Shown here piece by piece: positions 43,885-62,689 of a stretch of 64,000 nucleotides of DNA. This DNA comes from Allocoleopsis franciscana PCC 7113 (lineage in GTDB: Bacteria; Cyanobacteriota; Cyanobacteriia; Cyanobacteriales; Coleofasciculaceae): assembly GCF_000317515.1 (NCBI RefSeq), contig NC_019738.1, forward strand, positions 5,296,001-5,360,000, given 5' to 3'. The number at the start of each line of letters is the position of its first letter. Position 1 is the stretch's first letter. Both the position numbers and the translations under genes were made by a program. A model generated the notes under the pieces. It had not been told where the DNA came from and ran no database searches. It saw nothing but the letters and a program-made list of their open reading frames with translations.

Positions 43885-44085
43885 CGAGATTCTTTCTTGT
43901 CGATGGTTTAATTACACCAGTGTGGCAGAGTTGCAGACTCGACTGTTTCACACCGTGGGGAGATGACTTTGACCCTCATAGCCAACGATTCTGAACGTTA
44001 TAGAGGAATTAGGTCAAAATCAGGGACTCTTGATTCAAGAATCTTTAGACTTACGCAACATAAAAATTTTGATGAGGGAAAAATC

Positions 44086-47000
44086 ATGTTTGACAGTGGG
44101 GGAATAGTACTGGCAAGCCATAGCTGGGTCGCTTGGTTGGCGCAGCTAGCTCCAGCCGCTACCGATATCGACACGGCAGAGCAAGCCGCTTTGGTCTTTA
44201 GCGGACCCAAATTTTTTACAGCTTTGCTTTCTGGGGTATTGTTGGCGTTTGGTTTTCAGTTATTGTTAACCAACCTCTCCGTTGCCGCCGGGATCTCTTA
44301 CTTGGGGCGTTCATCCGATTCAGATTCAGATAAAGATGATGACGAGAGCGTAGGCAGTACGATTCGCAAAATTAGTACGGGTGTAGGAATTTGGACAGTG
44401 GTGACTGTGACCATTGCCCTATTCATTGCTTGTTTCTTAGCAGTGAAACTGAGCTTATTCAATGCGTGGTGGTTTGGGGCGATTGTTGGTCTAGTGATTT
44501 GGGCCACCTACTTCTCGCTGCTGGTTTGGGTCAGTTCGACCGCCGTGGGTTCTCTCGTTGGGTCAGTCGTCCATGCCGCCACTTCCGGCTTTCAAGCGAT
44601 TGTGGGAACCGCCACCGCTGCGATTGGCGGTGGCGTTGCCAGTCGGCAAATGGTGGCTACGGCTGAAGCCGCTGCCGGTGCTTTCCGCCGTGAATTGACC
44701 GCCGGGATAGACCCGGTGAGTATCCGGGAGAACGTGGAGGATTACTTACAATCGTTGCGTCCCCCAGAACTCAATGTGCAAGCGATTCGCTCTGAGTTTG
44801 AAAACTTACTTAATGACCCAAATTTGAAGGAAGTTGCTAAGAGTGGTAACCTCCGGGATGTTGACCGACAGACATTTGTGGATTTGGTCAGCAGCCGTAG
44901 TGATCTATCAAAACGGGATGTCAATCGGCTGGCTGATCAACTCGAAGCCGCTTGGAAAAAAACGGTGAGCCAGTTACCTCAGCCAAGAGATGCCATGGGG
45001 GAATTGGTCGATTACCTGAAAAATTCCACGGCACAGCAACTATTGGGAAGGGAGTTTTCTCAGAAACTAGATGAACTGGTTGGAGAATTGCGCCAACGCC
45101 GCCAGTCCCACGAGAAAGAGCAACAGCCAGCTAGCCCCATGGCTCAGGCGATGACGCTGGGAGTGAATAGCCTGATTGGGTTGGTGATGGGACGAACCGA
45201 TCTTTCTGATTTGGATGTAGAAAAAGTGGTCGGTCAGCTCAAAAAAGTCAAAGACCAAGTGGGTGACCAAGCGGGTAAAATTACCGCTCAGGTGAGCCGG
45301 GATCAAGCCGCGTTGCCATACAGTACGGTTCGAGCGGATGTAGAAAACTATCTACTCGATACTCCCGTCTGGAAGCTCACGAATCAACAACTTCTTGAGC
45401 GGGAGTTTAGGGATGTACTTTATGACCCAGCCGCTGACCCAGGAACCATTGCTGCTGAGTTGGAGCCTTTGCATCGGTCAGATTTTGCTGACTTACTGCA
45501 ACAGAAGGGTCTGTTGACTCAAAAGCAAATTAGGGAAATTTCCAACTCCTTAGAAGCGATTCGCTTGGAGGTTTTGACTGAAGCGGAGGCGGCTCAAGAG
45601 CGAGGGCAAACCCTGGCTTTATATCATGAAGTGGAACAATATCTGCTCACCACTCCCCAACAAGACCTGACTCCAGAAAAAATTCAGCTCAACTTTAAAC
45701 CGATTCTGGAAGACTCAGATGCGGATCATGGACTCCTGAACAATCGTTTAGCCCAGTTTGACCGCTCTACATTTGCTAGGATTCTCAGCCAGCGACAAGA
45801 CTTAACGATCGAGGAAGTAGACGCGATTATTCCTCACTTAGAACAAGCACGCGATCGCGCTCTAGTTGAATCTCAAGAAGTGCAAGAAGCGGCTAAGGCA
45901 CAAATTGAGGCTCAGTGGCTCAAAGTTCAGTCCTTACTGCGCGATACAGGCAGAGCAGAACTGAATCCCGATCACGTTGAGCGGGAGTTGAAAATGGTTT
46001 TGCATAGCCCACAAGCCGGATTAGCAGCCCTTCGGGCGAGAGCTGCTCGTTTTGACCGGGATACGTTGGTGCAGCTATTGAACCAGCGTCAAGATTTGAG
46101 TGAAGAGCAAATCAATCAAACGTTGGATCGAGTAGAAAGATCGTGGACTCGCATCACTCACACACCCCAACAAATCGCTGGAAAAGCAAAAGAGCAATAC
46201 GACCAAGTCATGTCGTCCCTTGCCGATTACCTGCGATCGACGGGGAAAGCTGAACTCAATCCCGAAGGAATTCAGCGAGACTTAACCAGACTGCTGGACA
46301 ATCCGAGAGCGGGTACATCTGCTTTGAGATCGCGTTTGGCACGTATTGATCGGGATACCTTGGTGAAGTTGCTCTCTCAACGGCAGGATTTGAGTGAGGC
46401 ACAAGTCAATCAGATTATTGACGATGTAGAGTTAACGATTCGCAACATTGTCAAGGCTCCCCGACGCCTTGCCAGACGGACTCAGCGTCAGGTGCAAGAT
46501 TTCCAAGGTGCGATCGCCGATTACCTACGCTCTACCGGGAAGGACGAACTCAATCCCGACGGGATTAAGCGTGATGTTCAGCTACTGCTGCATGATCCCC
46601 GCGCAGGAGTATCCAGTTTGAGTGATCGTTTGTCTCACTTTGACCGAGATACTCTTGTGAAGCTGTTGTCCCAACGGGAGGATATCTCGGAAGCCGATGT
46701 GAACCGGATTGCCGATCAAATTCTGGGCGTGCGCGACCAAATGATGGCACAAATGCGGGATTTACAACTCAGCATTCAGGCAGCAGTTGATCGGATTTTT
46801 GCCAAAATCCGCAATTATCTCAACAGCCTCGACCGTCCGGAACTCAACTACGATGGCATCAAGGCTGACCTGCGTAAGTTGTTTGATGACCCACAAGCGG
46901 GGTTTGAAGCGATGCGCGATCGCTTGAGTCAGTTTGACCGGGATACCCTGGTGGCAGTCATGAGTTCCCGCGAGGATATTTCTGAGGCTGACGTCAACCG

Positions 47001-47223
47001 CATCATTGACCAGATTGAGCGTACCCGTAACAGCGTGTTGCATCGAGCAGAACGTATGCAGCAGGAAGCTCAACGACGTATTGAGCAGGTCAAGTATCAA
47101 GCTCAGCGTCAGGCTGAAGAAACGCGCAAAGCGGCGGCATCGGCGGCTTGGTGGTTGTTTGGTACGGCGTCGGTTTCTGCGATCGCGTCAGCCATTGCCG
47201 GTGCTTTAGCGGTTGCTGGTTAA
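44086..47223 (+). CDS. Membrane protein with eight ~90-residue helical repeats
   Basis: A 1045-residue protein. After a short leader come three hydrophobic helices with an acidic loop (SSDSDSDKDDDESVG), then eight repeats of ~85-100 residues; the best match is DYLRSTGKAELNPEGIQRDL then LLSQRQDLSEAQVNQIIDD, and the units grow more alike toward the C-terminus. The last ~60 residues are a charged coil (RRIEQVKYQAQRQAEETRK) and a hydrophobic AG-rich helix. The repeats resemble a cyanobacterial family with no assigned role; a scaffold or cytoskeleton-like function is inference. ATG at 44086 has GAGGG; the ATG at 43963 lacks one. A strong terminator follows. Confidence 0.75.
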   Translation: MFDSGGIVLASHSWVAWLAQLAPAATDIDTAEQAALVFSGPKFFTALLSGVLLAFGFQLLLTNLSVAAGISYLGRSSDSDSDKDDDESVGSTIRKISTGVGIWTVVTVTIALFIACFLAVKLSLFNAWWFGAIVGLVIWATYFSLLVWVSSTAVGSLVGSVVHAATSGFQAIVGTATAAIGGGVASRQMVATAEAAAGAFRRELTAGIDPVSIRENVEDYLQSLRPPELNVQAIRSEFENLLNDPNLKEVAKSGNLRDVDRQTFVDLVSSRSDLSKRDVNRLADQLEAAWKKTVSQLPQPRDAMGELVDYLKNSTAQQLLGREFSQKLDELVGELRQRRQSHEKEQQPASPMAQAMTLGVNSLIGLVMGRTDLSDLDVEKVVGQLKKVKDQVGDQAGKITAQVSRDQAALPYSTVRADVENYLLDTPVWKLTNQQLLEREFRDVLYDPAADPGTIAAELEPLHRSDFADLLQQKGLLTQKQIREISNSLEAIRLEVLTEAEAAQERGQTLALYHEVEQYLLTTPQQDLTPEKIQLNFKPILEDSDADHGLLNNRLAQFDRSTFARILSQRQDLTIEEVDAIIPHLEQARDRALVESQEVQEAAKAQIEAQWLKVQSLLRDTGRAELNPDHVERELKMVLHSPQAGLAALRARAARFDRDTLVQLLNQRQDLSEEQINQTLDRVERSWTRITHTPQQIAGKAKEQYDQVMSSLADYLRSTGKAELNPEGIQRDLTRLLDNPRAGTSALRSRLARIDRDTLVKLLSQRQDLSEAQVNQIIDDVELTIRNIVKAPRRLARRTQRQVQDFQGAIADYLRSTGKDELNPDGIKRDVQLLLHDPRAGVSSLSDRLSHFDRDTLVKLLSQREDISEADVNRIADQILGVRDQMMAQMRDLQLSIQAAVDRIFAKIRNYLNSLDRPELNYDGIKADLRKLFDDPQAGFEAMRDRLSQFDRDTLVAVMSSREDISEADVNRIIDQIERTRNSVLHRAERMQQEAQRRIEQVKYQAQRQAEETRKAAASAAWWLFGTASVSAIASAIAGALAVAG

Positions 47224-48233: not shown

Positions 48234-48654
48234 GTCAGTTGTTCCTAAATTTCAAGGGGAGCTTGATTGTTGTGCCTTAGAAGTTGAGCAATTCTTAGCA
48301 AGCGGTCTAACCTGCTTATTAAGATTGAAAGAACGTAATTATCAAGTTGGTCTTTAAACTGAGGGTTAAGCTTCCTTGCCCTCCTTCTGTCTATTACTCA
48401 ACTCAAACACCCGGTGTTTTATGCAAAATTGAAAAATTAATTTATGTAACGAATTGCATAAAATTCTGCTTCTTTAGGTTGAGTAACAATCAGAGGTTCC
48501 TGATTCAATACATCATGAATAAATACTCAACACGACTCGTTAACCAGACACAACTGGAGTATCAAGCTGATGCTTCACCCGCTTATTTGAAGAAACGAAA
48601 ACAATAGTGAACGCTCTATTCAAGAGTTGCACCTCCAGTGGTATTTTCAAGACT
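48234..48654. other. Gap before sigma-like gene
   Basis: An 86-codon frame (48347-48607) looks non-coding in its first half; its end (from ATG 48515, MNKYSTRLVNQTQLEYQ) could be a 30-codon leader peptide that abuts the regulator gene, but has no good ribosome site. No promoter boxes are clear. Confidence 0.3.
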
Positions 48655-49554
48655 ATGGATGAGCGACTCGAAAAGCTAATCACAGAGGTACAACAACACG
48701 CTCCCCAATCTGAGGAGTGGCAGTTGGCGTTAACTCAACTGGTCAAAGAAATTCTCCGATCGCGAAAAATTGGTCGTCCGCCTATCGGTCAATCTCTATC
48801 TGGTGTTTACCAAGAAATTTACGAGCAAGCACAACAGCAACTTATACATAAGGTAGGTGAAGAACTTAGCAACTACAACCCAAAACGTATCCCTGTAAGA
48901 ACATGGGTCAATACCCTGCGAAATCTTGCTTTTAGAACAGTCTTGGATGATGTGCAACTCAAGAAACTAGCCTTAGAAGCTCAACGGCACCCACCCCATA
49001 GCGACTTACGACAACATGCTTTAGAAGAATTAGTGGAAGCCATTCGGCTATCAGGCAAGCTGAGCCACCCACATCGCACAAGATTTTCCCCCCAGTTTTA
49101 TGACCTGCTTTATGAAGAAGCGGTGAATAAAACTTTGATTTATGTCTGTCGGAAGATTGACAAATATGACCCCGAACGTGGTCAGGACAAAAAATTTATG
49201 ACTTGGGTCAATTTCCGACTAGATCGGGTCATTCTAGAGACCAGCAGAGAATTCAAAGACCCCAAAATCGTAGACTTACCTTCAATGAGTGATTTAGAAG
49301 AGAGATTACCCTCCGATGAATCACCTTCATTGTTTGAGCAACTTCGTGAATCTATAGAGGAAGATGCCAAAAATCTGTTTAAAAAGACACATATCCGAAA
49401 TCGTTGTGATGCTAATTTTCAAGCGATAGCCTTAGCCAGATTTTCGGGTCAAAGCTGGGAAGAAATTTCAACCCAATTCAGAATACCCTTACCAACATTA
49501 AGCAGTTTCTTTCAACGTTCTTGCGAAAAATTTCGCTCCCATTTTAGTCAATAG
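48655..49554 (+). CDS. Sigma-70-like regulator with duplicated core
   Basis: A 299-residue protein starting MDERLEKLITEVQQHAPQ, the usual start of the cyanobacterial sigma-70-like family that heads CHAT/DUF1822 clusters. C-terminal helix-turn-helix: NFQAIALARFSGQSWEEIS and FRIPLPTLSSFFQRS. Unusual: the ~95-residue N-terminal unit is repeated (ITEVQQHAPQSEEWQLALTQ / ALEAQRHPPHSDLRQHALEE; SNYNPKRIPVRTWVNTL / DKYDPERGQDKKFMTWVNF), where relatives as I know them have one. A GTG at 48607 allows 16 more residues but lacks support. DUF1822 follows 46 bp downstream. Confidence 0.78.
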   Translation: MDERLEKLITEVQQHAPQSEEWQLALTQLVKEILRSRKIGRPPIGQSLSGVYQEIYEQAQQQLIHKVGEELSNYNPKRIPVRTWVNTLRNLAFRTVLDDVQLKKLALEAQRHPPHSDLRQHALEELVEAIRLSGKLSHPHRTRFSPQFYDLLYEEAVNKTLIYVCRKIDKYDPERGQDKKFMTWVNFRLDRVILETSREFKDPKIVDLPSMSDLEERLPSDESPSLFEQLRESIEEDAKNLFKKTHIRNRCDANFQAIALARFSGQSWEEISTQFRIPLPTLSSFFQRSCEKFRSHFSQ

Positions 49555-49600: not shown

Positions 49601-50524
49601 ATGAACCCGAATCAATCCATCATTAACCCTGTTCTTGAACCTTGGACTTTCACCGTTCCCTTAGCCTTGGAGGCTCATGGGCGAGCAGAAGAGTTTCGAC
49701 GTTACCAATCGAATCCTGGCAAAGCCAAACAAATTTATCTGAATACCCTCGCTGTGTATGCCGTGCATGTTTACTTACAGTGCCGGGGATTTGAGACGGA
49801 CTTGGAGAGAAGCGATAGTTGGAACCCGATGATGCAGATGCTGATGGATACGGCTGATTTGTTGGTCAAAGATCACGGCAAGTTGGAATGTAGACCCGTG
49901 TTGCCAGAAGCAGAGGTTGTCGGCGTTCCCCCAGAAGTCTGGGAAGAACGGATGGGCTATGTTGCAGTCCAGCTTTCTGAATCCTTGAGAGAAGCAACGC
50001 TGCTGGGATTTGTGCAGAAGGTGGCAAAGTCAGAGGTACCCCTGAGCCAATTGCGATCGCTAGGAGAGTTACCAGGCTATCTGCATCAAATTAAACCCGT
50101 GATCAACCTGAGTCAATGGTTTGAGGATATCTTTGAAGCGGGTTGGCAAGCTGTGGAAGCCCTTTTAGCGGAACCTGCCGAGTTAGCGTTTAACTACAGA
50201 AGCGCTTCCCTTGAGGTGAGGCGGTGCAAGCAGATTGAACTGGCAACGGCAGATCGCTCAGTGGCGCTGATTGTCGCACTCATCGGAGAATCAGAGCAGG
50301 ACATGGATATTAGCGTAGAGGTGCAGCCCACAAACGGTCAATTCTATCTACCTGCCAATCTACAGCTAATGGTACTCAATGAGGATGGAGAAGCGGTGAT
50401 GGATATCCGTGCGGGTAGCAATAATAAGACCATTCAATTAGAGTTTGGTGGGGAAGCCGGAGACCGTTTCGGCGTTAAGGTGGTTTTGGGTGAGGTTAGC
50501 GTAACAGAGAATTTCATCATTTAA
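49601..50524 (+). CDS. DUF1822 protein
   Basis: A 307-residue soluble protein: FTVPLALEAHGRAEEFRRYQ, AKQIYLNTLAVYAVHVYL, QCRGFETDLERSDSWNP and GYVAVQLSESLREATLLGFV mark DUF1822. The second half is beta-rich (VALIVALIGESEQDMDISVEV, GDRFGVKVVLGEVSV). No catalytic motif is known. In cyanobacteria the gene sits between a sigma-like regulator and CHAT/CHASE2 genes, as here, so a part in the same signalling unit is likely. The next gene starts 30 bp downstream after AGGAG. Confidence 0.85.
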   Translation: MNPNQSIINPVLEPWTFTVPLALEAHGRAEEFRRYQSNPGKAKQIYLNTLAVYAVHVYLQCRGFETDLERSDSWNPMMQMLMDTADLLVKDHGKLECRPVLPEAEVVGVPPEVWEERMGYVAVQLSESLREATLLGFVQKVAKSEVPLSQLRSLGELPGYLHQIKPVINLSQWFEDIFEAGWQAVEALLAEPAELAFNYRSASLEVRRCKQIELATADRSVALIVALIGESEQDMDISVEVQPTNGQFYLPANLQLMVLNEDGEAVMDIRAGSNNKTIQLEFGGEAGDRFGVKVVLGEVSVTENFII

Positions 50525-50553: not shown

Positions 50554-52881
50554 ATGGGGAAGTTAATCGTTCTCAAAGTAGATGGTGATTTCAATCAAGG
50601 TTTTCGGGTAACCCTGGAGATTGGCGACTATGGCGATCGCCCAGAAGTGGAGGTTTTGGGCAACTTGCCCCCCGCGCCGGAACTGGTTGCACAGTATAGC
50701 GGCTGGCAGTCAAGCTATCGCCGTTTGGGCAAGGCTACCCGTATCCTTAAAGCCAAAGGAGCGAAGATTGATGGTTCCCTCAAAACCAGGAAACAAGAAT
50801 GCCGCACCCAATCCTTTGAGTTTTGCGATCGCCTCAATACCTGGCTCAAGGCTGAGTCCTTTCTCTCAATCCGAGAAAAGTGGCTCTCAAAAGTCAGCAC
50901 CTCTGATCAGGTGCGGGTGCTCATTCGTGCCAACAACCCGCAACTCTGGCAACTCCCCTGGCACCAGTGGGATTTATTGGAACGCTACACCTTTGCAGAA
51001 ATTGGAATCAGTTCTCTGGAGTGTGAAGCACCTCCGAGAAGAGAGAAGCCTCCTGATCGCTCACAGGTTAAAATTCTCGCGATTTTGGGCAATAGCCAAG
51101 ACATTCAAGTAGAACAAGACCGACAACGGCTAGAGAATTTACCCAACGCCGCCACAACATTTTTGGTGGAACCGCAACGCCAAGAACTCAATGATCAACT
51201 TTGGCAGCAGCATTGGGATATTTTATTCTTTGCAGGTCATAGTCAGACCGAAGGTGAAAGAGGGCGGATTTATCTCAACCAAACCGATAGCTTAACCCTG
51301 GACGAACTCAAGTATTCCCTACAAAAAGCAGTGGCAGGCGGGTTGCAACTAGCGATTTTCAACTCCTGTGATGGATTGGGATTAGCTAGGGAGTTAGACA
51401 AATTGCACATCCCCCAAATGATTGTGATGCGGGAACCAGTGCCAGACCTTGTGGCACAGGAATTTTTAAAGTATTTTCTTGATAGCTTTGCCAGGGGTGA
51501 GTCTCTCTATCGAGCCGTGCAGGAAGCGCGGCAGCAATTGCAAGGTTTAGAAGATGACTTTCCCTGTGCTAGCTGGTTGCCCGTGATTTATCAGAATCCT
51601 GCGGCTGTGCCTTTGACATGGTTACAATCGCCCGAACCTGCCACAGAACTTCCCTCTGTACAACCGGTTCCCCCAACCTTGCCCCCCTGGCATCGCTGGC
51701 GAACCGTCTTGGTTACCAGTTGGGTGGTTACCAGCTTAGTGCTGGGGGTGCGATCGCTGGGACTCCTGCAACGTTGGGAGTTAAAAAGCTACGATCAGCT
51801 CCTCCGTCAACGTCCTTCAGAATTAGCCGATGCTCGTATCCTGCTAGTGGGAGCCGATGAAGAGGATATTCGTGAATACAAGCATCCGCTACCCGATGCC
51901 GTTCTGGCGAAGCTGATTGAAAAACTGGAGCAATATCGACCCGTTGCGATCGGACTGGATATTTTTCGCGACCAAGCTGTACCGCCCGGTCATAATGCAC
52001 TCGTCACCCAATTAAAGCACAATCAACGTCTGGTTACCGTATGCTTCGGCACCGATCCAGAACATGCGGCTGCCCCTCCGCCCCACAGTCCGGCAGACCA
52101 ATTAGGCTTTAATGACTTACAACATGACAATGACTATACTGTTCGCCGCTATCTCCAATCCCGTACCCCAAATCCGATCGCTCCCCTTTCAGTTTGCAAG
52201 ACACCTTATTCCTTCAGCCTGCAACTAGCCTACCGATATTTAGAAGCTAAAGGTATCCCAGTAAACACAACTCCTGATAAAAACTGGCAGTTGGGTCATG
52301 TCATCTTTAAACGTTTAGAGCCTCATAGCGGAGGATACCAAAAGCTGGATGCACGGGGAAACCAGGTGTTAATCAATTACCGTAACACTCCTCAGATTGC
52401 TCAATTCGTTACTCTCAAACAGGTCTTCGCCGGGAAGTTGGAGCCGGAATGGGTGAAGGATCGGGTCGTTCTGATCGGTGTCACCGCCGCCAGCATTCAA
52501 GATGATCACAATACCCCTTATGGCAGAAGACGAGGACTGGAAGTTCATGCACACTTAGTGAGTCAGATGCTCAGTGCTGTTCAGGATGGACGCCCGCTGA
52601 TTTGGTGGCTGCCTCTATGGGGTGATGCTTTGTGGATTTGGGCTTGGTCACTGACGGGTGGAATACTTGTGTGGCAGATGCGATCGCGTTGTGTGGGCAA
52701 GGCAGAATCACCACGACGATTGGTTCTAGCGGTTGGCATCTCTGTTAGTGTTTTGTATGGACTCTGTTGGGTAATCTTGCTCCAAGGGGGTTGGCTACCC
52801 CTGATTCCGGCAGCAGTCGCTTTAGTAATTACAGGTGGTGCCATCGCCTACATTCCATTTCCCAGCCGTCAGCCGCAGTAG
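50554..52881 (+). CDS. CHAT-CHASE2 transmembrane receptor
   Basis: A 775-residue membrane protein. An N-terminal segment leads to a CHAT (caspase-like) domain with the dyad H229 (FFAGHSQ) and C272 (FNSCDG), cytoplasmic by topology; a membrane helix (~383-401); a CHASE2 sensor outside (YDQLLRQRPSELADARILLV, AIGLDIFRDQAVPPGHN, VLIGVTAASIQDDHNTPYG); then three C-terminal helices. CHASE2 usually precedes a kinase or cyclase; here the only output domain visible is the CHAT domain in front. ATG 50554 has AGGAG at 50543-50547; a TTG at 50548 is less likely. It follows DUF1822 closely. Confidence 0.88.
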   Translation: MGKLIVLKVDGDFNQGFRVTLEIGDYGDRPEVEVLGNLPPAPELVAQYSGWQSSYRRLGKATRILKAKGAKIDGSLKTRKQECRTQSFEFCDRLNTWLKAESFLSIREKWLSKVSTSDQVRVLIRANNPQLWQLPWHQWDLLERYTFAEIGISSLECEAPPRREKPPDRSQVKILAILGNSQDIQVEQDRQRLENLPNAATTFLVEPQRQELNDQLWQQHWDILFFAGHSQTEGERGRIYLNQTDSLTLDELKYSLQKAVAGGLQLAIFNSCDGLGLARELDKLHIPQMIVMREPVPDLVAQEFLKYFLDSFARGESLYRAVQEARQQLQGLEDDFPCASWLPVIYQNPAAVPLTWLQSPEPATELPSVQPVPPTLPPWHRWRTVLVTSWVVTSLVLGVRSLGLLQRWELKSYDQLLRQRPSELADARILLVGADEEDIREYKHPLPDAVLAKLIEKLEQYRPVAIGLDIFRDQAVPPGHNALVTQLKHNQRLVTVCFGTDPEHAAAPPPHSPADQLGFNDLQHDNDYTVRRYLQSRTPNPIAPLSVCKTPYSFSLQLAYRYLEAKGIPVNTTPDKNWQLGHVIFKRLEPHSGGYQKLDARGNQVLINYRNTPQIAQFVTLKQVFAGKLEPEWVKDRVVLIGVTAASIQDDHNTPYGRRRGLEVHAHLVSQMLSAVQDGRPLIWWLPLWGDALWIWAWSLTGGILVWQMRSRCVGKAESPRRLVLAVGISVSVLYGLCWVILLQGGWLPLIPAAVALVITGGAIAYIPFPSRQPQ

Positions 52882-52921: not shown

Positions 52922-53662
52922 ATGATCTACGTACCGAAACTGAAACTTGGCTTTGTTACTGTTTTTGCGATCGCTGGCTTCACCCTCAATTTGGCACCCG
53001 GATGGACACAATCCAATGCCCAAGTCATGGCAGATTTGTCACTGGCTAAGGTGCCGCTACCACCCGGAACCGGCTCACCTGAAGATCCGCAGAAACCGGC
53101 AGGAACCCGTGATGGTAGTGGAGTTGGAGCCTGCCAGCAGACAGATCAGCCATTTACGGCCTTGGTTCCTAAAAATGCTGATGAAAGTTTAACAACGGCT
53201 GAGTATCCGGTGTTTTGGTTTTATATTCCTCATGCTTCTGAGGACATACACTCCATCGAGTTTTCGCTGCACAATCAAGATGAGACAAAGACTGTTTACA
53301 TAGCTCCCATCCAGCTCACTAAAACACCAGGCGTGATTGGTATTCCCTTGCCACCTAGCGCCAAATCTTCTCTAAAAGAGAATCAGAGCTACCGTTGGCA
53401 ATTAACTGTTAATTGTACGGCACAAACAAAGCCAGAGGATGCCATTGTTTTAGAGGGTTTGGTGACACGAGTTGAGCAAAGCTCTAATCTTGTTGGTGTC
53501 ATTTGGTACGATGAATTGACCAATCGAGCTAGACGCTACCTATCTGAACCACAAAATCCTGAAGTGAAGAAGGCTTGGACAGAATTGTTGAAATCTGTGG
53601 GCTTGGAAGAACTGGTTCAAGCACCTTTGGTGAGTTCAGTCGGGAATGCTAAAAAAGATTGA
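52922..53662 (+). CDS. DUF928 secreted protein
   Basis: A 246-residue exported protein: signal-like hydrophobic start (KLGFVTVFAIAGFTLNLAPG), then DUF928: GTRDGSGVGACQQTDQPFTA, VFWFYIPHASEDIHSIEF, PVT-like loops, GVIGIPLPPSAKSSLKENQ and YRWQLTVNC. DUF928 proteins of unknown role commonly sit next to CHAT/CHASE2 and two-partner-secretion genes in cyanobacteria. It starts 40 bp after the receptor gene, so it is probably in the same operon as the sigma-like, DUF1822 and receptor genes. Confidence 0.85.
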   Translation: MIYVPKLKLGFVTVFAIAGFTLNLAPGWTQSNAQVMADLSLAKVPLPPGTGSPEDPQKPAGTRDGSGVGACQQTDQPFTALVPKNADESLTTAEYPVFWFYIPHASEDIHSIEFSLHNQDETKTVYIAPIQLTKTPGVIGIPLPPSAKSSLKENQSYRWQLTVNCTAQTKPEDAIVLEGLVTRVEQSSNLVGVIWYDELTNRARRYLSEPQNPEVKKAWTELLKSVGLEELVQAPLVSSVGNAKKD

Positions 53663-53781: not shown

Positions 53782-55566
53782 ATGCTGGATTTAACTACAA
53801 ATTCTAAGAGCTTTCTGGAAGCATCTGTTGCTCCTCATTCTGCTAATTTAGGTGAGACCGTAGGAGTGATCGACTTAATTACTCCTGAGTCAGCCATCAT
53901 TAATAGTTCACTGGGTGGCTTGGCATTGAGCATCGATGAGAGCTTTATTGAACCCATTGATTTCCTCTCCTCGAATGTTGAGGCATTGACACTGATTCCG
54001 AACAAGAGCGAAGTTGGGACAAATATCTCTACCAGTACATCTACAGGAAGCAACGATAAAATAACGGGTCAGCCGCTTTCTGATATCGGCGTGACCCAGC
54101 TCAATAATACTTCATTAAATTCCTTCAACCTTACCACAATCAATAGCCAAATCATTTCTGATGTCGCTGTATTAGCTACAGATCCCAACGGCACGATCGC
54201 GACCGCCGATTCCGTAGGTACCTTGACAACCAGTATCACTCAGACGGGTCAAATTGGTGGCAATGAGTCCTATGGGAAGGATACACGCGACTATTGGAAG
54301 TTTAGTGTTAACAGTGATTTCAAGGTTAATTTATCGCTGTCTGGCTTGAGTGGAAATGCTGGTTTAGCCTTATATAACAGTGCCGGTAAATTACTCACTT
54401 GGTCTAACCATGGAGGCGCTAACTCCGAATCCATCAGCCATTGGCTGGGTAAAGGGGACTACTACGCTTTGGTTTATAGTGAGGGTAACTGGGGTGGCAG
54501 CACGAACTACAATCTTGGCCTCCAAGCAGGTACACAGTTAAGTAGTCTCATCACTGACTACACCGTCCACCAAGCTGTATCATCAAGGATTGGAGATGGT
54601 CAGATTGACCGCAATGATATGATTGCCATTTTGCGTAGTACTAAAGATGGCAGCGTCATTGCCGAGGAAATTAACGACCTTCGAGATATTTTGAATGATG
54701 CTAAGGCTTTCGGTCTTGATGGCTACGTGCAAAATCTGGCTAACAAAGTGGTTAATGGTAATGTTGCCAACCAGAAGTACAAAGGTGCAGCTCTGGGTAA
54801 CTTGTTTGCAGGTAGTAGTGCCACCCATATGGAAAGCTTAGTGGATAAGTGGTTCCTAGGAGGCGATCATCCAGTTGCCAAATCTTCAAGTGGTAACACA
54901 ACCTACAGCTACAAGCAGGCTAGTGGATCGCTCTTCCAAAACGGCATCAGCTATCAAGATATAGACCAGGGTGGTGTTGGTGATTGCTACTTCGTCGCGT
55001 CTCTAGCGGGAACAGCTTTCCGTTCGCCCGATACAATTCGGGATATGTTCATCGACAACAATGATGGCACATTTACAGTTCGCTTCTTTAACGGAGATAA
55101 GGCTGACTACGTCACAGTAGACAAATATTTACCAACTACCGCTGGAGGAAATGCTGTGTTCGCTGGTTGGGGCGGTGGTTCCTATAACGAATCTAACAAT
55201 GAATTGTGGGTTGCATTAGCGGAAAAAGCCTACGCTCAAATCAACGAGTCAGCATGGATTGGTCAAGATAACACGAATTCTTACCAAGGCATTGCTTATG
55301 GTACTCTCAAGGCAATTAGCCACATCACAGGGCTTAATAACACTGGGTATAAGGACTTAGAAGCAGGTGACTTCAATTCAGTTGTGAACGCCTTCAATGC
55401 AGATCGCATTATCTATCTCAGTGATGGAGGTCATGCTTACACGCTAGTCGGCTACAATGCCACTACCCAGATGTTTAAAGTCTACAATCCATATGGCTCA
55501 ACGCAAGACATGACTTGGACAGCATTGGACAACAAGTTTGTCCGCTGGGGTTACTCAACCACCTAA
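53782..55566 (+). CDS. PPC-domain calpain-like cysteine protease
   Basis: A 594-residue protein. The N-terminal ~130 residues are low complexity; a bacterial pre-peptidase C-terminal (PPC) beta domain (~135-250; TRDYWKFSVNSDFKVNLSLS) is followed by a helical link and a peptidase C2 (calpain) domain: C402 (GGVGDCYFVASLAG), H551 (DGGHAYTLVGY), N569 (VYNPYGS), the full triad. No Sec signal peptide is evident, so secretion would need another route. It should cleave proteins, possibly calcium-dependent. It sits 120 bp after the DUF928 gene, same strand; a functional link is inferred from position. Confidence 0.85.
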   Translation: MLDLTTNSKSFLEASVAPHSANLGETVGVIDLITPESAIINSSLGGLALSIDESFIEPIDFLSSNVEALTLIPNKSEVGTNISTSTSTGSNDKITGQPLSDIGVTQLNNTSLNSFNLTTINSQIISDVAVLATDPNGTIATADSVGTLTTSITQTGQIGGNESYGKDTRDYWKFSVNSDFKVNLSLSGLSGNAGLALYNSAGKLLTWSNHGGANSESISHWLGKGDYYALVYSEGNWGGSTNYNLGLQAGTQLSSLITDYTVHQAVSSRIGDGQIDRNDMIAILRSTKDGSVIAEEINDLRDILNDAKAFGLDGYVQNLANKVVNGNVANQKYKGAALGNLFAGSSATHMESLVDKWFLGGDHPVAKSSSGNTTYSYKQASGSLFQNGISYQDIDQGGVGDCYFVASLAGTAFRSPDTIRDMFIDNNDGTFTVRFFNGDKADYVTVDKYLPTTAGGNAVFAGWGGGSYNESNNELWVALAEKAYAQINESAWIGQDNTNSYQGIAYGTLKAISHITGLNNTGYKDLEAGDFNSVVNAFNADRIIYLSDGGHAYTLVGYNATTQMFKVYNPYGSTQDMTWTALDNKFVRWGYSTT

Positions 55567-56210: not shown

Positions 56211-58997
56211 CTAAAGCCAATTTCCCACTAGAACATAAGGTGCCCAATAGTAGGGAGCTTTATATTGCTTAAAGAGTTCTAACTGAGCCTGATGCAGTGC
56301 CTCAGCCTTTGTCACTTCAGGCTTAGTTAACTCCTTGTAGAATTGCCCCATCAATTCAGCCGTAGAGCGATCGCTCACTTGCCACAGGGTTGAGAGTACA
56401 CTCCGCGCGCCCGCTCTCACCGCTATCCCAGCTAACCCCAATGTTGCTCGGTTATCTCCTTGCGCTGTCTCACAAGCACTCAGGACGAGTAACTCAACAC
56501 TCCTAGATGGACTTTGGTTGTTAATCCGAAGCAAGTTATTCAAGTCGCTGCTTTTGAGGAGCTGATCGTAAGCCAAAATATAGGTTTCTTCAGGGTCAGA
56601 ACTGAACTTACCATGAGTTGCAATATGAACGGCAGAAAACGCTCCTGAGTTAATCTTTTGTTGCAGATTTGCTTCCGTAAATTTGGGATTCAGCAGTGAT
56701 TCTGAAGGTACTATATTTCCCACTTCTTGCAATTCCTCTGGCACGCTGGGGAGTGCGCTAAACGTTCGCTGCTCAACTTGTCGCTGTTCACTCACTCCCG
56801 CTATCAAAACCTCTAACCGTTCTCGTTGCAGGGGTCGGAGGTCGAAAAGCTGTAAGCCTGGAACCAAAGCAAGCGCATACGGTTTCTGCATCAGATACTC
56901 CTTCCGCTTGCCATCATAAAGCACTGACATGGGAATATTTCGCAGAACCCCATCGAGCACAAACACTAATGTTTTAACTTCTTTAGTGTTTTCTAGGTCT
57001 GGCTCTAGAGGTTTGATTAGCCATTCGTAAACTTGTGTGGCATTTTTGATGACTTCTTCTGGACGGTTACGTCTTAATAGGTATGATCGCAAATCAATTG
57101 CTGTTTTTTCGACCTCACTCCGTTTGACAGAATTGACATGGTGTTTTAGAGGTTGTCCTGGAAGTTTAGCAATCACTTCTAAGCGGTTTTCCAGAATAAT
57201 TGGATAAATAAATGCTGCTTTCTGGTCTACCTTGTCACCCTCTTGGTTAAGCTGTACTCTCTCAGAAAGGTTACAGCTCAAAAAATTTTCCAATTCAGCT
57301 AACTGAAGGGAATCAATAACCTCAATCGCCTCTTGCAGATCGGATTGGCTCGGTTCCGAACTTTCCTCAGTTCTTAATAGCAAATCAACGAGTTTACGGT
57401 GAATCGGTTCTACATTGTCCCGAAAAGAAAACTGTACCTCTGAGTCAATGGTGAGTAAATCGCTCTTGACGGATTTGAGAGTTTTAACGGCTTCTTTATA
57501 GGCAAGAATCGCTCTTTTTCGATTTCCCTGTTTTTCCCATAAACGTCCCAGTTGCCATTCCCAACGGTAGCGAATATCGGGAGCTTGACTCTCCTCAGCT
57601 AGGAGGAGCGCTTTCTGGGTAAGTTCTTGGGCTGCTGACCACTGTTCAGTCAGTTCATACAGCCCACCTAGCTGTCCCAAAGCATAGGACTCAGCCCTTC
57701 GGTCTTTCAGAGTGCGAGCCTGTTGGACAGTATCGGCTAGAATTTGGGCAATTTCTGGCGAGGAAACTGGAACAAGGGTTTGCTGGGGAAGCTGTTCCCT
57801 TCGCTTTTCTTGGCGAGCGCGGCTCATGCATGAAAACGCGCTCGTGTCAAGATTGGGCTGGAGACAAGTCAGACTGCGAGCAAAGTTAAGTCGGGCATAA
57901 ATCGTTGTTTGACTCACCGGTAAACTAACCATCAACCCCTGGATTGTGGATTGTAGTTTGGCGGCTTCTGACCATTGTCCAGTTTCTACCAAAAGACTGA
58001 GCAAATTTAACTGAGCATGAAGTTTGAGGGGAGGTGAATCAGCGGCCTGTTGATAAAATGCGATCGCAGCTTGAGTATGCTTCTTTTCATCTTCTTCCTG
58101 ACCAATCGCGCTCGCTCTATTACCCAAGGCGCGTTCGGTATTTCCCAACTCCAGCAAAGCCGAACCCAGCGCTTTGGAGAGTTGAAAATCTTTAGCCACT
58201 GTCCGACTTTTGAGCAAAACCGCTTGAGACTGTCTTAGTTTGCCAACTTGTCTGAGAGCTTTACCCAGATTCTGCAATCCAGTTGCCTTGAGTTCAGAGT
58301 TTGATTGTTGATTTAGAATTAGCTCAATTTTTTGTAGTTCCGCCTCAGCTTGACTGGTTAAGCCTAAGGATTGTAGAGCTTGGGCGTGGTTAATCAAACT
58401 ACCAATAACACCTGTTTTATTCCCTGCTTTTTCGTAGGTAGCGGCTGCTTTGTTCCAGGTTAAAAGAGCTTCTGACCACTGTCCTTGTGCCCATTGCAGG
58501 CGACCTTGAGTATTTAATACTTTGGCGAAAACATCTAAGTATGCCTGGGTGTTAGCTGTTTGTACCTGGTTATTTAGAAGGTTCAGGCTGTTTGCAATCG
58601 CTCCTTCTGCTTCCTGCCACTGTCCCAAGTGTTGATAAGCCAATGAAAGATAGCGTAAGAGCAGCGCTTGGTTCAGGCTATCTCCTTGAGTTACAAAAGC
58701 AGAAACTGCCTGCTGCCAAACCTCTATCGCCTGCGAAAACTGTCCAGTCTCATAGAGTTCTATACCCTGTTGCAATAACAAGTTGGCATTGGAACTCTGA
58801 GAAATGCCTTGAGCAGTGCCTTCAATCGGTTGAGCTGACAGAGCCGGAACAGATAAGGTTGTTATAAGTGCCAACAGTGCTATAAGGCTTAGTCTGACTA
58901 TCTGTTGGTACGCCCTGCGTGGCGCGGACTTTCTCAAAAGTCGAATGGGATGGCAAAATAGAGGCGATTTGCTGCTCATGGGCTGGTTCTCTAACAC
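56211..58997 (-). CDS. Secreted TPR-CHAT protein
   Basis: A 928-residue protein: signal peptide (IVRLSLIALLALITTLSVPA), ~9 TPR-type helices (NANLLLQQGIELYETGQFSQ; AYLDVFAKVLNTQGRLQWAQ; RYRWEWQLGRLWEKQGNRK), then a CHAT domain with H795 (HIATHGKF) and C842 (LSACETAQGD), plus GLAGIAVRAGARSVLSTLW. CHAT domains are caspase-like proteases in several cases; here the dyad is intact. A start at 58979 (MSSKSPLFCHP) is also possible. Next to it on the same strand lies the TPS exoprotein, a pairing common in cyanobacteria. Confidence 0.9.
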   Translation of the reverse strand: MLENQPMSSKSPLFCHPIRLLRKSAPRRAYQQIVRLSLIALLALITTLSVPALSAQPIEGTAQGISQSSNANLLLQQGIELYETGQFSQAIEVWQQAVSAFVTQGDSLNQALLLRYLSLAYQHLGQWQEAEGAIANSLNLLNNQVQTANTQAYLDVFAKVLNTQGRLQWAQGQWSEALLTWNKAAATYEKAGNKTGVIGSLINHAQALQSLGLTSQAEAELQKIELILNQQSNSELKATGLQNLGKALRQVGKLRQSQAVLLKSRTVAKDFQLSKALGSALLELGNTERALGNRASAIGQEEDEKKHTQAAIAFYQQAADSPPLKLHAQLNLLSLLVETGQWSEAAKLQSTIQGLMVSLPVSQTTIYARLNFARSLTCLQPNLDTSAFSCMSRARQEKRREQLPQQTLVPVSSPEIAQILADTVQQARTLKDRRAESYALGQLGGLYELTEQWSAAQELTQKALLLAEESQAPDIRYRWEWQLGRLWEKQGNRKRAILAYKEAVKTLKSVKSDLLTIDSEVQFSFRDNVEPIHRKLVDLLLRTEESSEPSQSDLQEAIEVIDSLQLAELENFLSCNLSERVQLNQEGDKVDQKAAFIYPIILENRLEVIAKLPGQPLKHHVNSVKRSEVEKTAIDLRSYLLRRNRPEEVIKNATQVYEWLIKPLEPDLENTKEVKTLVFVLDGVLRNIPMSVLYDGKRKEYLMQKPYALALVPGLQLFDLRPLQRERLEVLIAGVSEQRQVEQRTFSALPSVPEELQEVGNIVPSESLLNPKFTEANLQQKINSGAFSAVHIATHGKFSSDPEETYILAYDQLLKSSDLNNLLRINNQSPSRSVELLVLSACETAQGDNRATLGLAGIAVRAGARSVLSTLWQVSDRSTAELMGQFYKELTKPEVTKAEALHQAQLELFKQYKAPYYWAPYVLVGNWL

Positions 58998-59020: not shown

Positions 59021-62000
59021 CTAGCGTAGGCGACAGCGACGTTGGGTGCCAGTGATAGGCACCTCAGCCACGAGGACAACTTCCCCTTTTTGGTTAATCC
59101 GCCACCCTTGAGCCTCGACAATTTGGTCAGGTGGGGTTGCGAGTGCGGCAGAGACAGGAACAGCACGAGCCTCAAGTTCAGTTCCCTGTGTGGCAGAGGG
59201 TACATCTTCCCAAATGTCACTGCTGCTTATCGGTTCGTAAGGATTAGGTGCTAAACCCCCTCTGCCAGTATCGAAAAACTCAACAGCTCCCTGCTGTTCA
59301 GCGGCTTGGCAGCCTTGTGCAACCTCTACGTTGACTGGCTCAATGGGTAAGTTCACTAATCCCTGGCTGGGGTCAACATCGGGCGTGATAATCTGCACAG
59401 TGCCGTTTACCCCAAACTCAGAACTGGCGGTAATATCACTCAACGGAGTCAGGAGGGGGCGGAATTGAAGGCCATAAATACCTTGAGTTGTAATATTGAT
59501 ATTGCCGCCTCGACCTGTGAAGGCATTGGCGGTAATGTCGCTATTCTCTTTAGGGACAGCAAGGATAAACTGAGCATCAATCGCGATATTGCCACCATCT
59601 CCCCCAGCTTGAGCCGTGCCTGCGGTTGTGGATATACGGCTACCATGACGCATCAGTAATAAATCCTGCACCTGTAGGGTAATACCGCCACCTGCGTTAC
59701 TCGCTGTTTCAGCAGAGATTGAAGCATTATTGTTCAGGGTTATAGCACCAGCCTGAATCTGGATGTTACCGCCTTCCCCCGCGCCCTGGCTATCCACTGC
59801 GACACTTGCGCCCTCTCGAATCACCATCGTCTTGGGGTTACTAATGAGAATGCTGCCGCCGTTGCCGATAGAACCGCGCTCTGTGTTGGCAAACAGACCA
59901 CTGTCAGATCCGGCTAGGGTAACATCCTCATGTACTCTTAGGGTGATGTTTCCAGCCTGATTGCTGCCGGCTGTAGTGGTGCGGAGTTGTCCGCCATTGA
60001 TAGCCTCAAAACGATTTGCCGTCACAGCGATACTACCACCAGTGCCACCGGAGGTAGAAGCAGAAACCTGTGCTGTATCCTGGACAGTCAACAGTGGGGT
60101 ATTAACTATCACATTTCCAGCAGCCCCAGTACCTTCAGTCCTAGCAAATAAACCACTGGCAGAGCCATCCGTATCAACTTGATCAAATTGGGCGAGGCGT
60201 GCAGTAAAAGTGGAATCATTGCCAGCTAGGATGACGCGATCGCTGGTATTAACTGTAATGTTACCTGCATCTCCGCTACTGAAGGCCGTGGTGAGGAGTT
60301 GTCCACCATTGGTAACCTCAAGCGTATTGGCATCGACATTGATATTACCGCCCTTAAAGGAACTCCGGCTTACGGCACTCAATACTGCGCCATCCGATAC
60401 TCGCAAGGTACTGGTAGTAACTCGGATATCACCACCCTGACCCCCAGCACCTTCTTCCGTGTTAGTCAATAACCCACTAGAGAAGCCTGTGGTTGAACCC
60501 ACGCCAGAGAGGTTAACAGTATCTGAAATGTTGATTGCAATATTTCCTGAGTTTCCTGCTCCAAAGGTGGCGGCAAAGAGTTGAGCGCCGTTGGTTAACC
60601 AGAGGGATTTAGCTGCAAGCTGGATGTCGCCACCATTGCCCTGTGCTTCCCATGCCACGCCACTGATAATAGCGCTGGTATCACCGATGAGCGAGATAGA
60701 ATCATTCGCCTGTACAAAAATGCTGCCAGCATTTCCTGTGCCGAAGGTGCTGTTAGAGATACGGCTCCCATCTACTAGAGATAGGTAACCTGTCTGGATA
60801 TCAATGTTTCCGGCCTGACCGTTAGCTCCAAAGTCTACATTAGAGTAGATTTTGCTACTGGTAAGGGAAATAAAATCATTGGCTCGAACGGTTATAGTTC
60901 CGGCATTTCCCTGCCCAGCCGTATCAGCAAACAAGACAGAGTTATCAGTCAAGGAAAGTGAACCAACGCTGAGGTTAATGTCACCCCCTGAGCCGATACC
61001 TCCTTCTTCTACGCTGGAATCTAAAGCAGAACCTTCACTTAAGGAGAGTGAGTTAGTTTGTATATTGATTTTGCCCCCTTTCCCGATAGAGCCTTCTCTT
61101 ACAGCGCTGTAGATTCGACCATTTACTAGCAAAATAGATTCGTTAGCCTGCACGGTGATATTGCCAGAATCTCCTTGACCAAAGGTACTCGTACTCAGGT
61201 CAGCACCATCAGTTAAGGAAAGCAACGGAGTCTGGATATTGATGTCGCCACCGTTACCTTCAGCATCAGAACCCACATTGCTCCTGATACTAGTGTTTCC
61301 TGTCAATGAGACAGAGTCCTTGGCCTCAATTAATATTTTTCCAGCGTTTCCCTGCCCGAAAGTAATAGCGCCTATTTGAGCGTTATCGGTTAAAGAAACA
61401 AATGTAGCTTTGATATTTACGTTGCCGCTATTCCCAGTAGAATCCGGAAGTACAGAGTTGGCCACGATACTTCCCTGTCCTATGTTTACCTCTCCTATGG
61501 CATCAAGTGTGATATCTCCTGCCTGAGTGCCATTAAACCCAAAATCGGCATCGAATCCAGCCCTAACACTACTGCGGTCAATGGTTAGATTATCGGCATA
61601 AATGGTAATGCTACCACCATCACCGAGGCTCCTAATTACGCTGCCATTAACTGAGACATCTGTCCGTGCTATAGCTTCAGGAACGTTTAAACGTAGACTG
61701 CTGTTATTAACCTCCAATCCAATGGTTCCCGAATCACTTACCCCCGCCAACTCGACTCGACCCTCCGGAGCCTCCAACAGCGTGCGATTGAGCTGCAAAT
61801 TACCACCGACAAGAGCTAAGGTTTTACCCTCAAGCACTTGGAGTCTAGACCCCTGCGTTTCGATACTTCTGGCATTACCTCCATATTGCAATCCCAGAGG
61901 AACATTAATGGTAAGCAGGGGAGGAGATTGGGGCGCAGTAGCACTAAACGCCAAGCCATTTTCAAACACCAAACTGTTGGCTGTTGTCGCGACAAATGAA

Positions 62001-62482
62001 CTCTCCACATCCAACTGGGCATTGGGTCCAAAGATAATCCCATTGGGATTAATCAAAAATAAGTTAGCTGTCGAATCACCAAAAGTACCGACTAGACCCA
62101 AAATTCTGGATGGATTACCACCCGTCACCCGTGCCAGAATGTTCTGAATACCCGCTGGACTATAGAAGTAGGCTCCTCGATCAGCCTCAACATTAAATGC
62201 TAAAAAGCTGTGGAATAGATTTGTACCTCTAGTTGCTCCACCATCGATTTCGTCAATCGGCAATCCCAGGTCATCAAGGGGTGTAACAACAGAAGGTTCA
62301 GCCCCTAAAGTAGCATCGGGAATAATTTGAGCCAGGGTAGGATTTCCCAAAGAAGCGATCGCTCCACCGAGCAAAAAATTTATTAAGAGAAAAATAGCTC
62401 TATTTAGAATAAATATAGATAAATAATCGGTAAGATTTGCCGAGCCGTTTTCCTCATTTTTTGCTCGGCTATTAATTGACAC
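59021..62482 (-). CDS. Two-partner-secretion exoprotein (filamentous hemagglutinin N-terminal domain)
   Basis: A 1153-residue exported protein. From the GTG at 62482 (AAGGAG at 62489-62494) comes a hydrophobic signal (LNRAIFLLINFLLGGAIASL), then the TPS domain (GGATRGTNLFHSFLAFNV, LFLINPNGIIFGPNAQL, the NPNG motif) and many ~40-residue beta-helix turns (e.g. LSLTDGADLSTSTFGQGDSG; VQANDSISLIGDT). A TTG at 62524 is the open end but less likely. TpsB (the outer-membrane pore) is not in the window. It likely acts at the cell surface as an adhesin or effector. Confidence 0.9.
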   Translation of the reverse strand: MSINSRAKNEENGSANLTDYLSIFILNRAIFLLINFLLGGAIASLGNPTLAQIIPDATLGAEPSVVTPLDDLGLPIDEIDGGATRGTNLFHSFLAFNVEADRGAYFYSPAGIQNILARVTGGNPSRILGLVGTFGDSTANLFLINPNGIIFGPNAQLDVESSFVATTANSLVFENGLAFSATAPQSPPLLTINVPLGLQYGGNARSIETQGSRLQVLEGKTLALVGGNLQLNRTLLEAPEGRVELAGVSDSGTIGLEVNNSSLRLNVPEAIARTDVSVNGSVIRSLGDGGSITIYADNLTIDRSSVRAGFDADFGFNGTQAGDITLDAIGEVNIGQGSIVANSVLPDSTGNSGNVNIKATFVSLTDNAQIGAITFGQGNAGKILIEAKDSVSLTGNTSIRSNVGSDAEGNGGDINIQTPLLSLTDGADLSTSTFGQGDSGNITVQANESILLVNGRIYSAVREGSIGKGGKINIQTNSLSLSEGSALDSSVEEGGIGSGGDINLSVGSLSLTDNSVLFADTAGQGNAGTITVRANDFISLTSSKIYSNVDFGANGQAGNIDIQTGYLSLVDGSRISNSTFGTGNAGSIFVQANDSISLIGDTSAIISGVAWEAQGNGGDIQLAAKSLWLTNGAQLFAATFGAGNSGNIAINISDTVNLSGVGSTTGFSSGLLTNTEEGAGGQGGDIRVTTSTLRVSDGAVLSAVSRSSFKGGNINVDANTLEVTNGGQLLTTAFSSGDAGNITVNTSDRVILAGNDSTFTARLAQFDQVDTDGSASGLFARTEGTGAAGNVIVNTPLLTVQDTAQVSASTSGGTGGSIAVTANRFEAINGGQLRTTTAGSNQAGNITLRVHEDVTLAGSDSGLFANTERGSIGNGGSILISNPKTMVIREGASVAVDSQGAGEGGNIQIQAGAITLNNNASISAETASNAGGGITLQVQDLLLMRHGSRISTTAGTAQAGGDGGNIAIDAQFILAVPKENSDITANAFTGRGGNINITTQGIYGLQFRPLLTPLSDITASSEFGVNGTVQIITPDVDPSQGLVNLPIEPVNVEVAQGCQAAEQQGAVEFFDTGRGGLAPNPYEPISSSDIWEDVPSATQGTELEARAVPVSAALATPPDQIVEAQGWRINQKGEVVLVAEVPITGTQRRCRLR

Positions 62483-62689
62483 TTGGTTTCTCCTTTTTTG
62501 CTTATATATCCTTTTAACTAACAAATTTTAATTAAGATTTTATAGAAAAATGCATACTTAATAAAAATCAATGATTAATTTCCATCAAGAACAATAAATT
62601 CGGAATATCTAAAAATTTTATTTAATTTTAATTTAGCCGTAACCGAAAAGCCGTGTAAAATCCCGATGACCTAAAGCGGAGCTCACCCA

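Follow-up and report, generated by a model that had tools for sequence, protein, structure and literature searches.

How might a signal from outside a cyanobacterial cell be turned into a response by a protease? The question is raised by one gene in a 64,000-nucleotide stretch of Allocoleopsis franciscana PCC 7113 (NCBI RefSeq assembly GCF_000317515.1, contig NC_019738.1, positions 5,296,001 to 5,360,000 of the forward strand; hereafter, the window), whose product joins a caspase-like CHAT domain to a CHASE2 sensor domain. A prediction made from the letters of the window (hereafter, the original prediction) had described this product as a receptor with its sensor behind its effector, reminiscent in its logic of death receptors. 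Analysis of the receptor, its relatives and its neighboring genes suggests how an outside signal might reach a sigma factor (features are collected in Table 1).

Table 1 Features of the receptor gene and its conserved neighbors, in window coordinates
Feature	Position	Strand	Extent and basis
Sigma-70/ECF-like protein	48607..49554	+	NCBIfam SigK 5.6e-7, TIGR02937 2.1e-4; weak Pfam region 2 and 4
DUF1822 protein	49601..50524	+	Predicted cytoplasmic; Pfam, structure model
CHAT-CHASE2 receptor protease	50554..52881	+	775 aa
N-terminal lobe, alpha/beta	50554..51033	+	aa 1 to about 160; AlphaFold2 model, fold comparison; fits published EACC2 description
Active caspase-like lobe	51067..51624	+	aa 172-357; Pfam, fold comparison
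H229 codon, putative catalytic histidine	51238..51240	+	Conservation in core alignment
C272 codon, putative catalytic cysteine	51367..51369	+	Conservation; 43 residues after H229
Disordered linker	51619..51681	+	aa 356-376; AlphaFold2, comparison of relatives
Membrane helix 1	51685..51756	+	aa 378-401; hydropathy, AlphaFold2
CHASE2 ectodomain	51757..52614	+	aa 402-687; Pfam, AlphaFold2
C497, invariant ectodomain cysteine	52042..52044	+	Comparison of relatives
C548, second such cysteine; putative disulfide partner of C497	52195..52197	+	Comparison of relatives
Membrane helix 2	52615..52689	+	aa 688-712; hydropathy, AlphaFold2
Membrane helix 3	52708..52782	+	aa 719-743; hydropathy, AlphaFold2
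Membrane helix 4	52801..52851	+	aa 750-766; hydropathy, AlphaFold2
DUF928 protein	52922..53662	+	Signal-peptide-like N-terminus; Pfam

Receptor architecture and predicted membrane topology

The receptor reading frame opens with an ATG at 50554 and ends with its stop at 52881, an in-frame TTG six bases earlier (50548) being an alternative start. Pfam recognizes two domains in the product and nothing else: CHAT (1.1e-14, residues 120-337, 55 bits against a cut-off of 24) and CHASE2 (1.7e-66, residues 395-706, above its curated cut-off), both numbered on the 777-residue reading; no metacaspase (Peptidase C14) profile in Pfam matched the receptor. Nine residues remain beyond the last membrane helix and no kinase, cyclase or other output domain follows it, as the original prediction had stated.

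The receptor helices were located from family averages and AlphaFold2, as strict single-sequence prediction missed some of them. Hydropathy averaged over 35 relatives placed helices at residues 381-399, 689-707, 725-743 and 748-766, with a fifth, weaker peak (659-677) inside CHASE2, and the long helices of the AlphaFold2 model (mean pLDDT 83.7, pTM 0.52; residue ranges in Table 1) fall at these same four sites. Lysine plus arginine content was 2.9 before helix 1, 4.9 between helices 2 and 3, and 0.2 between helices 3 and 4. Furthermore, all 35 relatives share C497 and C548, and nearly all have no other ectodomain cysteine, which fits a disulfide formed in an oxidizing compartment; among other CHASE2 proteins of this genome, the pair is absent from the cyclase-type and present in a TIR-linked (L062) and a kinase-linked (L061) protein. 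On the basis of hydropathy, charge pattern, invariant cysteines and the AlphaFold2 model, the CHAT domain and the short C-terminal tail are predicted to be cytoplasmic and CHASE2 to be extracytoplasmic. The original prediction of a CHAT domain ahead of the first membrane helix, followed by CHASE2 and three C-terminal helices, therefore stands, and its placement of the caspase-like domain inside and CHASE2 outside holds as a prediction, also in the structural model that it had proposed as a check. Neither of the observations that would have counted against it, a CHAT dyad without catalysis or a CHASE2 facing the cytoplasm, was made.

What did not hold up was the suggestion that an effector placed before its sensor is unusual. 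Since CHASE2 is flanked by one helix on one side and three on the other, both ends of the module would lie in the cytoplasm and an effector may be attached at either. Canonical CHASE2 receptors share the one-plus-three helices but carry their cyclase or kinase effector C-terminally, and most scanned CHASE2 proteins of this genome end in cyclases or kinases or in nothing recognized, while one bears three N-terminal TIR domains. The latter, a 1066-residue protein (L062:4377-7577, minus strand, near genome position 3796000) with its CHASE2 at the C-terminus, is a second effector-first CHASE2 receptor, and a DUF928 gene adjoins it. A comparable protein is known from Trichodesmium erythraeum, where a metacaspase-CHASE2 protein (Jiang et al. 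2010, PMC2853523; Asplund-Samuelsson et al. 2012, PMC3501461) combines an N-terminal caspase-like domain, a C-terminal CHASE2 and one plus three helices, and was drawn with this same topology in the second of these papers. That protein was labeled a metacaspase, whereas the window protein matches CHAT rather than C14 in Pfam.

A two-lobed CHAT core with a conserved His-Cys dyad

Of 78 aligned cores, 77 keep H229 and C272, which lie in the translated reading frame exactly where they had been claimed and are flanked by strongly conserved sequence; the dyad is intact and putatively catalytic. The remaining core has lost both residues, and one could suppose from such a loss that CHAT is a pseudo-enzyme scaffold that binds partners without cutting them; given the conservation of the dyad and its flanks, we consider this very improbable. 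A relative without the dyad, from Oscillatoria and with a phosphonate-binding-type sensor (L119:4731-7163, plus strand), has serine and glycine in place of the histidine and cysteine.

The spacing of 43 residues between H229 and C272 equals that of the catalytic H615 and C658 in Csx29, in which, as in separase, a pseudo-caspase lobe is paired with an active one (PMC10028731). In fold comparison, model residues 1-357 matched the protease regions of separase (Z 23) and Csx29/TPR-CHAT (Z 20-21), SAVED-CHAT over the active lobe (Z 19) and, at lower scores of about 12.5, caspases (caspase-6, Z 12.6); PDB sequence searches with receptor, DUF1822 and sigma alignments gave nothing useful. Kaur et al. 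2021 (eLife, PMC8195603) describe EACC2-caspase systems with the same plan, in which an alpha/beta and caspase-like N-terminus precedes swappable C-termini, CHASE2 with membrane helices among them, and ECF sigma and DUF1822 genes adjoin. Those authors treat EACC2 as a separate novel domain, whereas our models suggest that EACC2 and caspase together form one two-lobed protease fold of the separase/Csx29 type. Because Csx29 is two-lobed and the alignment with the separase/Csx29 protease region begins at model residue 1, the EACC2 region probably corresponds to the pseudo-caspase lobe (CHAT1), the match to EACC2 being made to its description in that paper.

Between CHAT and helix 1, AlphaFold2 predicts a disordered linker of ~20 residues whose length and sequence vary among relatives, and a flexible, non-conserved connection of this kind makes rigid helix-to-helix signaling through helix 1 unlikely. 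Such a linker could instead be the site of self-cutting, a ligand causing CHAT to cleave ahead of helix 1 and release a soluble protease or signaling fragment, and autopeptidase activation was indeed proposed by Kaur et al. (PMC8195603). However, no conserved cleavage site was found in the freely varying linker among relatives, and related CHAT cores also occur C-terminally or on soluble STAND-WD40 proteins; we regard self-cutting as improbable.

Sigma-like, DUF1822 and DUF928 genes beside the receptor

The assignment of the sigma-like protein draws on its NCBIfam matches, its Pfam region 2 and 4 matches lying below cut-off; its N-terminal half repeats the region 2-like part in tandem and in degenerate form (34% identical, E 1e-12), and in some relatives the upstream genes match nothing. 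Ahead of the sigma gene, a block at 48438-48496 (plus strand; TAATTTATGTAACGAATTGCAT and TGAGTAACAATCAGAGG) is conserved in four relatives, and no second copy that could mark a shared promoter motif was found within the window. Further upstream, a 1086-residue membrane protein (43963-47223, plus strand) contains several degenerate repeats of ~80-100 residues in its translation.

In the DUF1822 model (pLDDT 87.9), an alpha/beta N-domain is followed, after a disordered loop (192-201), by an Ig-like sandwich at the C-terminus. The protein accordingly appears in this model to combine alpha/beta and Ig-like domains and not to be the TPR protein named by Kaur et al. 2021 (PMC8195603). A fold search returned generic Ig-like sandwiches with no convincing likeness to an anti-sigma factor or to Csx30, comparison with the PDB set gave no sequence match, and no conserved cleavage site was found in DUF1822. 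The sensor domain of the anti-sigma factor RsgI4 was among the fold matches, indistinct from unrelated ones, and was set aside. Signal-peptide-like starts were seen in 54 of 64 DUF928 relatives, compared to 3 of 72 for DUF1822 and 0 of 27 for sigma.

Directly downstream of DUF928 lies a calpain-family cysteine protease gene (53782-55566, plus strand; Peptidase_C2 and PPC domains). On the minus strand, a TPS exoprotein gene (56211-58997) is followed after ~24 bases by a gene (59021-62524) whose TPR-CHAT product begins like a signal peptide, and such TPS/TPR-CHAT pairs recur across the genome and related loci, often with DUF928 and CHASE2.

The sigma-like and DUF1822 neighbors point to transcription as the output no less than to killing. 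A suicide or immunity receptor, in which an external signal would lead CHAT to cleave many host proteins or a pore-former until the cell dies, is what the analogy of the original prediction and the literature on caspase homologues suggest. It would agree with the caspase fold (the caspase-6 match above), with the filing of EACC2-caspase systems among conflict systems by Kaur et al. (PMC8195603), and with the joining of CHASE2 to three TIR domains in the same genome. Nevertheless, PADLOC returned no match to the receptor, sigma, DUF1822 or DUF928 proteins (its TPR and 2TM hits were marginal and fell on other genes), the conserved gene set includes no toxin or pore gene, and the sigma and DUF1822 partners stay constant in a family with many paralogues per genome. 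We therefore judge a killing role rather unlikely.

Sensor and core modules travel separately

A genome scan for receptor relatives yielded 75 loci. Matches were present in 20 of 20 family genomes, most of which hold full-length CHAT-CHASE2 genes, often in several copies; relatives are multicopy across filamentous cyanobacteria. The A. franciscana genome itself has 54 CHAT matches, 16 CHASE2 genes and four DUF1822 genes, each of the four near an EACC2-CHAT-type gene. Two more EACC2-CHAT-type receptors of this genome (L053:6957-9518, minus strand; L052:9282-11792, plus strand) have as sensors one divergent CHASE2 and one periplasmic-binding (ANF-like) domain.

CHAT cores are combined with CHASE2, periplasmic-binding-protein domains, nSTAND1-WD40, kinase-CHASE2 or TPR, or stand C-terminally behind pentapeptide repeats. 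Placing the CHASE2 label on the tree of cores takes nine changes, at least five of them forced by well-supported branches, which indicates that sensors have been swapped. A single core with swapped sensors fits a receptor family better than it fits a HetF-like role, in which a membrane-anchored CHAT would locally trim a division, envelope or developmental regulator and DUF1822 and sigma would only control its expression. HetF, a cyanobacterial regulatory protein acting in division and development (PMC8406250), likewise has CHAT before a membrane helix and is the nearest NCBIfam model (1.8e-9 over the CHAT part), and secreted TPS and TPR-CHAT proteins are encoded nearby; yet the HetF score is 36.5 against a cut-off of 1200 bits, and HetF has one helix with TPR repeats beside it and no CHASE2. 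Such a role seems to us distinctly unlikely.

The conserved neighbors divide between the two halves of the receptor: the CHASE2 sensor is accompanied by DUF928, the CHAT core by DUF1822 and sigma. Of 46 CHASE2-bearing cores, 42 have a DUF928 gene no farther than 5 kb away, compared to 1 of 23 others (Fisher test, 5e-13, with relatedness ignored), and 12 of the 15 DUF928 genes in the A. franciscana genome lie no more than 6 kb from a CHASE2 gene, where random placement gives 0.36 on average. DUF928 has a different position in eight loci (three of them near-copies), in most cases upstream and on the opposite strand, so the link to CHASE2 does not reflect one fixed gene order. DUF1822, on the other hand, lies upstream of CHASE2-bearing (43/46) and other (19/27) CHAT cores, and when the set was widened to 75 full-length CHAT-CHASE2 genes, 67 had DUF1822 and 54 a sigma-like gene.

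Evolutionary distances between parts were then compared after adding 34 further loci, less three repeats among them, which gave 23 loci with all five parts. Partial correlations were 0.64 for DUF928-CHASE2, 0.60 for DUF1822-sigma and 0.42 for CHAT-DUF1822, compared to 0.04 for CHAT-sigma and -0.16 for CHAT-DUF928, and the new loci alone agree. The first set of 17 loci had a different inner order (CHAT-sigma 0.59, CHAT-DUF1822 about 0), and no clear chain of correlations emerged in sigma group B. The DUF928-CHASE2 correlation is stable in every locus set, whereas the order of the cytoplasmic parts depends on the sample. As the correlation chain follows gene order, block exchange of neighbors could produce it without contact between the proteins.

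Proposed signal relay

We tentatively favor, as a plausible but far from secure reading, that the receptor is a membrane version of a sigma/DUF1822/two-lobed-CHAT unit with a swappable sensor, serving as a relay from signal to sigma factor. Briefly, CHASE2, possibly with the secreted DUF928 protein, would sense a periplasmic signal; the signal would rearrange or cluster the receptor and, via the flexible linker, activate the cytoplasmic CHAT domain; active CHAT would cut or remodel DUF1822, its presumed substrate; and DUF1822, which may otherwise hold the sigma-like protein in check, would free it to change transcription. In this scheme we infer an active CHAT, a DUF1822 that CHAT acts on as its substrate and a sigma factor that DUF1822 holds back. 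The more specific form, in which CHASE2 and secreted DUF928 activate CHAT and CHAT cleaves DUF1822 as a new kind of anti-sigma factor, in many units per genome with interchangeable sensors, is possible but rather doubtful.

The strongest precedent for the relay is the cleavage of a sigma inhibitor, Csx30, by Csx29, which is also a CHAT protease (PMC10028731). The Csx29-Csx30-CASP-sigma system of type III-E CRISPR shares the two-lobed CHAT fold, the His-Cys spacing and the encoding of a sigma factor and its inhibitor alongside the protease; it differs in that Csx29 is RNA-activated through Cas7-11, with no membrane part and no CHASE2, and DUF1822 is not recognizably Csx30. DdvA, a Myxococcus transmembrane anti-sigma factor (8rot, 8rw5) that acts on an ECF sigma factor and contains a CHAT-like fold (residues 706-991, Z 14), may be a further hint that CHAT folds are repeatedly found with sigma control, although DdvA is a single anti-sigma protein with no CHASE2 identified and the likeness is structural only. 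DdvA was rejected as a CHASE2 precedent, as the aligned ranges cover the CHAT half.

The relay would accordingly resemble Csx29-Csx30-sigma more than a death receptor. Metazoan death receptors use a cytoplasmic Death domain to recruit a separate caspase, whereas here the protease is fused to the receptor and Pfam finds no Death domain; the analogy of the original prediction is only a loose one, and a death-receptor role, though possible, has less support than the relay. CHASE2-caspase proteins had already been drawn as surface death receptors in a 2020 review (PMC7475262).

Discussion

The domain order and topology have been known since 2010-2012 from Trichodesmium and the sigma/DUF1822 set since 2021, and both are already published. 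Three small additions, the link to DUF928, the fold of DUF1822 and the reading of EACC2 as part of a two-lobed protease, were not found in the literature searched: no mention of DUF928 was found in Kaur et al. 2021 (PMC8195603), and our search found no paper joining the phrase 'CHAT domain' with CHASE2.

Since the sensor and core parts travel separately, it would take a single protease, candidate substrate and sigma factor to test the relay. If the relay is true, two uncharacterized families, DUF1822 and DUF928, would gain roles, and the CHAT-sigma pairing of type III-E CRISPR would gain a membrane-receptor counterpart. Filamentous cyanobacteria would then carry many one-piece receptors in which caspase-like proteolysis turns an outside signal into gene expression.
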